Positions 7,874-22,241 of a stretch of 33,134 bases of DNA are shown here, piece by piece. How positions within the stretch are numbered: the first letter of the stretch is position 1; each line of letters begins with the position of its first letter. This DNA comes from Schwartzia sp. (in: firmicutes). Lineage in GTDB: Bacteria > Bacillota > Negativicutes > Selenomonadales > Selenomonadaceae. The DNA lies in the NCBI GenBank assembly GCA_017444395.1, contig JAFSWT010000009.1, positions 1 to 33,134 of the forward strand. The letters are read 5' to 3'. The translations under genes were made by a program, and so were the position numbers. Below the pieces are notes generated by a model that saw only the letters and a program-made list of their open reading frames with translations, ran no database searches and was not told the origin of the DNA.

Positions 7874-7897
7874 AGAGGGCGACAAATCCATATCCGT

Positions 7898-8031
7898 GTC
7901 TTTGGGGCGGGGTGCGATTCCCCACCGGCGGTACAGCCCGCGAGCTATCTTTTTAGCATGATCCGGCGCGATTCCGGAGCCGACAGTGATGAGAGCGATG
8001 TTCTGTTCTCTGAGTCTGGATGAGAAAAGAC
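7898..8031 (+). promoter_or_regulatory. FMN riboswitch (RFN element)
   Basis: The conserved RFN blocks are all present in order: TTTGGGGCGGGGTGCGATTC, CCCACCGGCGGTA, AGCCCGCGAGC, GATCCGGCGCGATTCCGGAG, GCCGACAGT and AGTCTGGATGAGAAAAGA. The closing stem pairs GTCTTT at the 5' end with AAAAGAC at the 3' end. FMN binding should shut off the riboflavin genes. The terminator at 8052-8086 immediately after the aptamer points to control by premature transcription termination. Confidence 0.97.
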
Positions 8032-8051
8032 GATGGTTTTGCAATGCATGC

Positions 8052-20882: not shown

Positions 20883-22064
20883 CTACAGCGCATCCCGCTG
20901 CAGGAACTCCCTGAGTTGATAGTGGCAGACGGTGCTGGTGGAAAAATCGACCTCATCGTTGGTGATGATGATTTTCTTTACGGAATGATCGATCCCGGCG
21001 AAGGCCGAGAATTCCCTCTCATACGCCTTATCCTCGGCGACGCTGTACGCGACCTGGACCAGATAGACCTTGCTGCCTTTCACGGCGCGAAAGTCGATTT
21101 CCCGGCCCCGGTTGTCATAGACGGAAACTTCATAGCCCCTATAGGCAAGTTCGTTCAGGACGATGTTTTCCAGGTTGTGGGTCAGGTCATAGCGCGTGCC
21201 CGATTGCCGGATGCTGTTCAGGGAAACGTCCTCATCGTATAACTTATAATAATAGTTGAGCTTCGCTTTCGCCTTGGGAGAGTAAAGAGGCACATCCCCG
21301 ACCAGATAGGCTTCCTTCAGATAGCCCAGATATTTGATGACCGTGGGGACCGACACGGAAACGCCCTGCCCTTTCATGTAGTCGGCGATGGACTTGGCGC
21401 TGAATATCCGCGCGTTGGAAATGAGCACATAGTCGGCGATGCGTTCAAATACGTCTTTCTTGCGGATGTCATACCGGACTTCTAGGTCATTGTAAATGAT
21501 GGTATCGTTGAGGTCCTCCAGGTATCGTTTCCTCGCTTCTTCCGTTGGCTGCTCCAGGGCCGCCGGGAAGCCGCCCCAAACCAGATAATCGCTGATGGCG
21601 AAAGGACGGCCCAACTGCTGGGCGTATTCCGCCGCTTCCCTGTAAACGAAGGGCCTGACCCGGAAAGAAACGTACCGTCCGGACAGTTCCCGGGTGAATT
21701 CTTTGGACAGGAGTTTGGAATTGCTGCCGGTGATGAATACGGACGCATTATATAGCCGCAGCGTCCGGCAGGCCTCATTCCAGCCTTTCACATTCTGCAC
21801 TTCATCGAGGAAAACAAAGAGCTTTTCATCGCCGAGCCGGCTGCTCACATAGGCGATGAGAGCGTCGGCATCCGGAAGCATCGCCCGGACCGGCCGCAAA
21901 TCGAAATCCAGGAACAGGCATTTCCGGCCGGCGGATTCCAGATCGTCCATAGCCTGCTTCATGATGACAGACTTCCCGCAGCGCCGGATGCCGGTGATGA
22001 CTTTGATCAGGTCGCTTTCATAGAAGGGCCGGATTTGCGACAGATAGTGTTCCCGGCGAATCAC
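20883..22064 (-). CDS. AAA-type ATPase with DUF4143 C-terminal domain
   Basis: 393 residues from GTG 22064. The N-terminal ATPase has Walker A ITGIRRCGKSVIM, Walker B LFVFLDEVQNVKGW and sensor FITGSNSKLLS, followed by the C-terminal DUF4143 region with EIDFRAVKGSKVYLVQVAYS, a nuclease-like EID..Q signature. Such ATPases are common accessory genes in anaerobes and their role is not established. The frame opens at ATG 22112, but the promoter found at 22121-22149 would start transcription almost at that ATG. GTG 22064 has GGGGGG about 6 bases upstream, so it is preferred. The gene stands alone, lower in GC upstream than its neighbours, which suggests horizontal transfer. The promoter is framed by two palindromes. 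Confidence 0.9.
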   Translation of the reverse strand: MIRREHYLSQIRPFYESDLIKVITGIRRCGKSVIMKQAMDDLESAGRKCLFLDFDLRPVRAMLPDADALIAYVSSRLGDEKLFVFLDEVQNVKGWNEACRTLRLYNASVFITGSNSKLLSKEFTRELSGRYVSFRVRPFVYREAAEYAQQLGRPFAISDYLVWGGFPAALEQPTEEARKRYLEDLNDTIIYNDLEVRYDIRKKDVFERIADYVLISNARIFSAKSIADYMKGQGVSVSVPTVIKYLGYLKEAYLVGDVPLYSPKAKAKLNYYYKLYDEDVSLNSIRQSGTRYDLTHNLENIVLNELAYRGYEVSVYDNRGREIDFRAVKGSKVYLVQVAYSVAEDKAYEREFSAFAGIDHSVKKIIITNDEVDFSTSTVCHYQLREFLQRDAL

Positions 22065-22115
22065 ACGAATCCCCCCTGGCTTTTGATCATGACTTTTTGT
22101 CTGGCAAGGCATTTT

Positions 22116-22177
22116 CTTAAAGTGTACTTTAAGATTTTTTCAAAGTCAACAAAATCTTAAAGTAGTAATTTAAGATT
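22116..22177 (-). promoter_or_regulatory. Promoter with two CTTAAA-type palindromic operators
   Basis: On the minus strand: TTGACT (22144-22149), 17-base spacer, TACACT (22121-22126). An 18-base palindrome, CTTAAAGTGTACTTTAAG (22116-22133), covers the -10. A second inverted repeat, AATCTTAAA (22153-22161) with TTTAAGATT (22169-22177), lies just upstream of the -35. Both share the word AATCTTAAA / TTTAAGATT, which looks like a repressor site present twice. Confidence 0.75.
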
Positions 22178-22204
22178 TTGCATTCGGCGATGATTTCTTA
22201 AAAT

Positions 22205-22241
22205 AAAAAGGAAGGCCTCCATCTCCGGGGCCTTCCTTTTT
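22205..22241. terminator. Terminator after the gene at 22260
   Basis: Perfect 13-bp stem AAAAAGGAAGGCC (22205-22217) with GGCCTTCCTTTTT (22229-22241). It works in both directions and ends the minus-strand gene. Confidence 0.9.

Follow-up and report, generated by a model that had tools for sequence, protein, structure and literature searches.

A putative self-operator of a PDC-S01 defence-candidate ATPase: a four-turn array of half-sites in the promoter region of a Schwartzia gene and its relatives

Introduction

DnaA and other AAA+ initiators bind arrays of sites and repress their own gene, while WYL-type (BrxR-type) proteins of defence islands are reportedly repressors of defence loci. The winged helix of NLRs is not known to act as a reader of DNA sequence. 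In the AbiE systems, the DNA-binding protein (AbiEi, Rv2827c) is reported to repress its own promoter via inverted repeats, one pair of which lies over the transcript start (PMC7319586), and RptR is described as a defence-locus repressor acting on repeats over the -10 (PMC12255303).

The PDC-S01 ATPase is a candidate single-gene phage-defence system, very common yet uncharacterised. One paper, in which validation is said to be pending for most such defence candidates, places it fourth by frequency among the defences of prokaryotes as a whole (PMC12988326), and it is given as the most frequent individual locus (10,358) in a cattle rumen genome set (PMC13356809). The main text of PMC12988326, in which the word “promoter” is absent, describes no operator for PDC-S01, and in the open-access literature (subscription papers being outside the scope of our search) we found no report of an operator for the AAA_14-DUF4143 ATPase family.

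In this study we analysed a window of 33,134 nucleotides (the whole stretch of DNA under examination, from contig JAFSWT010000009.1 of the Schwartzia sp. assembly GCA_017444395.1) which carries such an ATPase gene; its product matches the PDC-S01 models of PADLOC (E 1.6e-113, residues 15-405). The locus would resemble AbiE in that the DNA-binding protein of a candidate defence locus represses its own promoter via inverted repeats. It would differ from AbiE, whose binder is a separate antitoxin, in having the single ATPase as binder; its sites, moreover, are arranged as a 40-41 bp array of clade-specific sequence. RptR and the BrxR-type proteins are dedicated regulators of other genes, not self-regulating ATPases. 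With DnaA the locus shares an AAA+ ATPase, a repeat array in its own promoter region and, as we propose, cooperative assembly; however, no replication role is indicated for the ATPase, and its reader would be an internal winged helix. By predicted structure, the ATPase is closest to STAND/MNS-type ATPases (SSO1545 and PABY2304, then NLR and CED-4 NB-ARC chains), but, unlike in the NLRs, a helix of the winged helix covaries with the operator (in a combined set of loci) and a restriction-endonuclease-like domain follows. Autorepression via inverted repeats (AbiE antitoxins) and repression over -10 repeats (RptR) are known; the putative self-operator of this ATPase family is, as far as our search of open-access literature shows, new.

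Results

The ATPase gene

The gene probably begins at the GTG codon 22064-22062, behind a GGGGGG ribosome site, since close relatives have their start codons at the aligned position and ATG 22112 follows the -10 by a mere 9 bases or so. Both Pfam matches of the window protein exceed the curated cut-offs (AAA_14, 97.6 bits against 27; DUF4143, 44 bits against 28.1), and the PDC-S01 models match all 116 members of our alignment A1, the window's own included, at E 1e-10 or better. Searches with the window ATPase returned no PDB relative by sequence and no NCBIfam match. A Pfam scan of the ATPase and its 120-aa and 130-aa neighbours revealed no AbiE-type antitoxin or partner gene: the 120-aa neighbour matched nothing and the 130-aa neighbour had matches below cut-off only. 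Of 151 genomes of the same family, 82 contain a match to the ATPase at E 1e-20 or better, and one genome (G063) carries nine or ten copies.

A half-site array around the promoter

The first-pass annotation described an 18-base palindrome covering the -10 of the ATPase gene. The palindrome does cover the -10, but its length is 20 bases (22115-22134; 9-base arms and a 2-base centre). A second inverted repeat with the same half-site had been placed upstream of the -35, and it is indeed found there: it occupies 22150-22180, has 15-base arms (93% complementary) with a 1-base gap, and abuts the -35. The two repeats are mutually related: the TACTTTAAGATTTT found at 22125-22138 recurs as an exact complement at 22151-22164. 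Both turned out to be part of a larger array, which includes a fifth, weaker half-site and thus comprises five half-sites of the TACTTTAAGATTTT type in alternating orientation (22115-22205), with a period of 40-41 bp and the minus-strand promoter (TTGACT-17-TACACT, with a 17-base spacer) inside it. Read along the minus strand, the order is weak half-site, reverse, forward, -35, reverse, -10 and forward (Table 1), and the same-orientation spacings are 41, 40 and 41 bp.

Table 1. Features of the ATPase locus, in window coordinates
Feature	Position	Strand	Remarks
ATPase gene	20886..22064	-	probable true frame from GTG 22064, 393 aa; AAA_14, winged-helix-like aa 203-277, restriction-endonuclease-like C-terminal part of DUF4143; PDC-S01
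Half-site d, ACTTTAAGA, forward type	22115..22123	-	overlaps -10 end, runs towards transcript start
-10 TACACT	22121..22126	-	TAnnnT in equal register in 37/38 close arrays ending in a reverse half-site
Half-site c, AAAATCTTAAAGTA, reverse type	22125..22138	-	overlaps first bases of -10
-35 TTGACT	22144..22149	-	in 12-base gap between half-sites b and c; TTGA in same place in 30/38 close arrays
Half-site b, TACTTTAAGATTTT, forward type	22151..22164	-	exact complement of half-site c
Half-site a, AAAATCTTAAATTA, reverse type	22166..22179	-	arm of 93% complementary repeat
Outermost weak half-site, TATTTTAAGA, forward type	22196..22205	-	one mismatch; 41 bp from half-site b
Terminator-like hairpin bounding array	22205..22241	+	array end

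When the 150 bp upstream of the ATPase gene were subjected to 200 dinucleotide shuffles, the observed inverted repeat was never reached. The distal palindrome pattern has no further occurrence in the 2.3 Mb draft genome at up to three mismatches, and the 14-base half-site has one further occurrence in it with one mismatch and eight with two, the reversed control pattern giving 8 matches.

The array in close relatives

The closest relatives of the window protein are 68-81% identical to it and come from records labelled Lachnospiraceae, Selenomonadaceae, Acidaminococcaceae, Spirochaetales, Succinivibrio, Clostridia and Kiritimatiellae, and many of these records have titles that name a rumen or gut source; Fibrobacterales and Aeromonadales records come next (58 and 55% identity). 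Most of these are metagenome bins, so single taxon labels can be wrong. Removal of five second fetches of the same genomes from the 45 close loci left 40, the window's included, for the counts of spacing and register. The first-pass annotation had proposed looking for the same site upstream of homologous genes, and the site is there: 36 of the 40 loci, from several labelled phyla, have at least two AATCTTAAA half-sites with no more than one mismatch, the exceptions being L035, L041, L042 and L073.

Close relatives share a promoter plan in which a forward half-site is followed by the -35 and by a reverse half-site running into the -10. The forward-to-reverse spacing is 25 in 42 of 49 cases and 24 in the other 7, and the reverse-to-forward spacing is 16 in 15 of 16. 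In 37 of the 38 arrays that end in a reverse half-site, TAnnnT (TAGAAT in 19, TATAAT in 11) starts 10 bases after the start of that half-site, and the position 13 bases before it holds TTGA in 30 and TTG in 34. The operator thus overlaps the -35/-10 region at the window locus and in close relatives. On this comparison of upstream sequences, most close relatives have an alternating array of putative half-sites with a 40-41 bp period (four helical turns), whose register is fixed relative to the -10 and, in most cases, to the -35 as well.

Pairs of loci with 85-98% nucleotide identity remain homologous for about 90-340 bp upstream, where the sequence reaches that far, and beyond the stop codon the homology is as a rule lost inside some 160 bp; a small number of pairs share a longer stretch (one of 3 kb downstream, three of about 1.5 kb upstream). 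The comparison of close loci revealed no other gene regularly shared with the ATPase-operator unit. An operator core was found downstream of the gene in just 1 of the 59 testable loci (of 99 with a clear operator). Judged by these alignments, the array differs between clades and travels with the gene, lying upstream and almost never downstream of it. ATPase genes of high nucleotide identity in differently labelled records (L035-L096) usually have only this short upstream stretch and the gene itself in common, as if the single gene and its operator formed a transfer unit.

Palindromes and period in the wider family

A usable gene start with at least 60 bases before it was available for 157 of 184 matched loci, the relatives from the same-family genome search being part of the matches listed; 147 of the 157 upstream regions entered the shuffle test, 8 duplicates and 2 short or N-holding sequences being left out. 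Inverted repeats equalled by no more than 2 of 200 shuffles were present in 104 of 135 family upstreams (including the window gene and two further copies from its own genome) against 11 of 148 control upstreams (Fisher 8e-36), and in 3 of 12 upstreams from other DUF4143 branches. Relatedness makes the family loci non-independent, which the variety of operator cores lessens but does not remove. The controls are less A+T-rich (median 0.61 vs 0.68), and A+T-rich controls behave alike (6/79; 4/71). Distant members keep the plan and change the letters, as in TTATCAGTTATAACTGATAA, ACTGAAAATTTT, TGTCCAGTAG, ATTGAGAATTTT, ATTCCCCAAA, CAAGTTTTTAAA, TTTACATCGTGATGTAAA and others. An attempt to sort the operators into classes by single linkage was dropped when runs of A and T chained 87 of the 99 loci.

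The period was measured at the 99 loci that have a clear operator: of 119 spacings between successive half-sites of like orientation, 97 are 39-41 bp, and three loci have arrays of 6-7 sites. When repeat shifts were scored free of any motif, the best shift was 39-41 in 80 of 134 family upstreams vs 9 of 147 controls; direct repeats scoring 11 or more occurred in 57 of the 134, all but one (56) at 39-41 bp, and in 13 of the 147 controls, two of them at that distance. In another DUF4143 branch, none of 19 upstreams had its best shift at 39-41 bp.

After the period had been seen, 160 further loci were fetched, of which 110 were kept (score above 300, below 80% identity to A1, 85% non-redundant) and 109 had usable upstreams. 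The best shift was 39-41 in 24 of the 70 genome loci (p 2e-7), which represent the same family (often other copies in sampled genomes) and other families of the phylum, and in 12 of the 39 viral contigs (p 1e-4). Repeats scoring 11 or more were less pure, with 11 of 19 (genome) and 7 of 15 (viral) at 39-41, and palindromes were rarer (23 of 70 genome loci; 6 of 39 viral contigs, no excess over controls, p 0.11), which suggests that the period generalises further than the palindrome. The viral upstreams had already been seen in an earlier pass, in which 8 of 48 (score above 300) passed the inverted-repeat test. The exact 29-base palindrome had no match in viral contigs. Among 16 plasmid-borne relatives from several phyla, the best direct repeat lay at 39-41 bp in 7 (Parabacteroides, Enterococcus gilvus, L. 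gasseri, Ilyobacter, Lachnospira, R. albus and Streptococcus) and at another distance in the copy on an archaeal Methanosphaera plasmid.

In the window's own genome, two ATPase genes of another DUF4143 branch (L165 and L166, contigs C123 and C19) have upstream direct repeats, namely two copies of CATTTTTCATAGGAAAAAGTGT and two clear copies plus a weaker third of TTTGCGxTTTGTGTA. Other DUF4143 branches may therefore have operators of a different layout.

Predicted structure of the ATPase

The AlphaFold model of the protein (pLDDT 92.4, pTM 0.90) places helices at 203-215, 223-232 and 239-251 and strands at 219-221, 255-262 and 267-277 after the ATPase part, followed by the C-terminal domain. 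From this order of helices and strands in the whole-protein model, we assign residues 203-277 to a predicted winged-helix-like region. Model residues 1-288 are best matched by 2qen and 2fna, the structures of the pair SSO1545 and PABY2304 (Z 17.3; rmsd 3.1 and 3.3, 258 aligned), and next by NLR and CED-4 (NB-ARC) chains (Z 14-15.5), with DnaA and Orc chains among the Foldseek matches; the predicted model thus has a STAND/MNS-type P-loop ATPase fold together with the part that follows it.

For the C-terminal domain, modelled alone (pLDDT 89.8), the best matches include AF1548 (Z 8.8, rmsd 3.4, 98 aligned) as well as a VRR_NUC domain (Z 8.5, rmsd 2.9, 87 aligned), and many of the other matches are restriction-type or related nucleases; no Foldseek match reached E 0.001. 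The model therefore points, with moderate strength, to a restriction-endonuclease-like (PD-(D/E)XK) fold. The lysine of motif III is absent: position 339, which follows Gln337 by two residues, holds A, S, T or C in all 116 A1 members (A1 residues follow the window numbering from V17), which makes nuclease activity of the PDC-S01 branch doubtful, although a lysine might be supplied from elsewhere. Four other-branch paralogues in the same genome retain E-x-K, unlike the A1 members at residue 339.

Covariation of protein and operator

Between genomes (81 loci), operator similarity was 0.41-0.45 at protein identities below 60%, 0.533 at 60-70%, 0.727 at 70-80%, 0.664 at 80-90% and 1.0 above 90%. 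For copies within one genome it was 0.419 (32 pairs, none at 0.75 or above), which equals the background of 0.425.

The input for the covariation analysis consisted of A+T-rich operators reached by at most 2 of 200 shuffles and, for new loci, also of 39-41 bp repeats scoring 9 or more. In a scan of all 12-residue windows of the protein from which overall identity had been removed (83 loci), residues 236-247, at the presumed recognition helix, tracked the operator best, a result attained by 0 of 500 permutations, by 1 of 500 at below 60% identity and by 7 of 500 without the window's own group; at below 45% identity a different 12-residue window ranked first. With 125 loci, residues 238-249 ranked first of 378 windows at both below 80% and below 45% identity (1 of 500 permutations each), but the helix came only seventh among pairs with at least one new locus, and the 42 new loci alone gave no helix signal (rank 52 of 378). 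Among those 42 loci, residues 279-290, after the wing, led the operator tracking. The covariation is weak (partial r 0.17-0.23), and the differences in a nearest-neighbour test are small (helix 0.480, whole winged helix 0.479, AAA part 0.466, whole protein 0.451, nuclease part 0.415, background 0.420). A one-letter half-site code at residue 240, fixed beforehand after an impression by eye, proved over-simple: on other loci Asn240 failed (0 of 5), Glu240 and Lys240 were not significant, and Pro240 gave a hint (2 of 3 vs 2 of 39, p 0.02; three loci). The loss of rank in new loci, the small nearest-neighbour differences and the failed one-residue code mean that reading of the operator by the recognition helix of the ATPase is supported by these comparisons, but not secure.

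The composite promoter-operator was found in 8 of 189 family genomes, six times before the ATPase gene, once as an orphan and once at a contig end, which argues against a wider regulon. In the orphan array (L404; G041:C200, 8751-8786) the -10 is lost, unrelated genes adjoin and the stretch examined contains no ATPase match, as if the gene had been removed and the operator left behind. The other (L405; G095:C30, 9499-9534) lies 152 bp from the contig end and is followed by repeated GGAAACCG-type segments, which resemble the terminus of a mobile element that has come to separate the operator from the gene.

Discussion

We consider it probable that the repeats are a putative self-operator, to whose half-sites the ATPase binds, cooperatively repressing its own gene. 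A half-site over each end of the -10, with the -35 between two half-sites, fits repression. The first-pass annotation had suggested a repressor that loops or blocks the promoter: the position over the -10 is that of a repressor, from which we infer repression, but the looping part is not needed, as a period that stays at 40-41 bp points to cooperative binding on a single face of the helix. The same annotation left the binder as the ATPase itself or an outside regulator, and the evidence leans towards the ATPase, because the sites go with the gene, operators of copies that share a genome do not exceed the background in likeness and the helix tracks the operator in the combined set.

Regulation by an outside host repressor would suit the palindromes well, since palindromic operators over the -10 are typical of MarR-, TetR- and GntR-type proteins. 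The same site nevertheless accompanies the same gene in records labelled Selenomonadaceae, Lachnospiraceae, Spirochaetales, Succinivibrio and Kiritimatiellae (mostly metagenome bins, with fallible labels). Given also that operator copies in one genome do not exceed background likeness, that the composite site is confined to so few genomes and mostly precedes the ATPase gene, and that no other gene is regularly shared with the unit, we find control by such a regulator quite improbable. Chance palindromes or transcript hairpins might be expected in A+T-rich intergenic DNA beside a terminator-like hairpin; the shuffles and the neighbouring-gene controls rule out a chance or terminator origin of the repeats, and their conservation across records of different phyla further leaves this explanation with practically no probability.

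The ATPase might bind the array for another purpose, as a cis site for DNA transactions (initiator- or partition-like iterons, or a self-recognition mark), with the promoter overlap incidental. Its fold does resemble that of AAA+ proteins generally known to bind arrays, archaeal Orc1/Cdc6 and DnaA, and three loci have 6-7 sites per array, but a single register of the -10 and, for the most part, the -35 within the array, together with the near absence of cores downstream, render a promoter-independent role unlikely. Positive feedback, in which the ATPase would activate its own promoter from upstream sites without repression, could draw on the half-sites upstream of the -35 and on the related ATPase IniR, reported to bind and induce the iniBAC promoter (PMC5760070). 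We give it little credence, as half-sites overlap the start and the end of the -10, which is a repressor position, and as TTGACT-17-TACACT here and TTGAC with TAGAAT or TATAAT in relatives are good promoters, for which an activator should be needless.

Under the autorepression that we favour, the ATPase would bind the half-sites via its own winged helix, with a recognition helix at about residues 239-251. Since a four-turn period puts like half-sites on one DNA face, the AAA+/NB-ARC-like domains of neighbouring molecules could touch, the promoter would be covered cooperatively and the gene would repress itself, its expression staying low. If the ATPase then lost its hold on the sites, be it by titration, through a switch of nucleotide state or on capture by a product of the invader, a burst of ATPase would follow, and such a release might, more speculatively, trigger a defence response. 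A bolder version, which we regard as fairly unlikely, holds that the array serves as the system's sensor: the NLR/STAND-like ATPase would be parked in an ordered four-turn assembly on its own promoter, and disturbance by an invader (RNA polymerase takeover, DNA degradation or modification, protein titration) would lead to release, derepression and active oligomers, a private operator in each lineage avoiding cross-talk.

PDC-S01 is presented as a common defence and no mechanism is described for it in the sources cited above (PMC12988326, PMC13356809); the putative self-operator opens the way to a direct assay, with a DNA ligand to bind, a reporter to follow and half-sites to mutate. Should the ATPase read DNA by its winged helix, it would link an NLR-like ATPase fold with sequence-specific control of a promoter, and the coexistence of nine or ten copies in one genome without cross-repression would be accounted for by private operators.

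Elsewhere in the window, an FMN riboswitch (7894-8035, plus strand, 89.8 bits) precedes ribD, ribE, ribBA and ribH (names from a reading of the open reading frames), an ordinary riboflavin operon.
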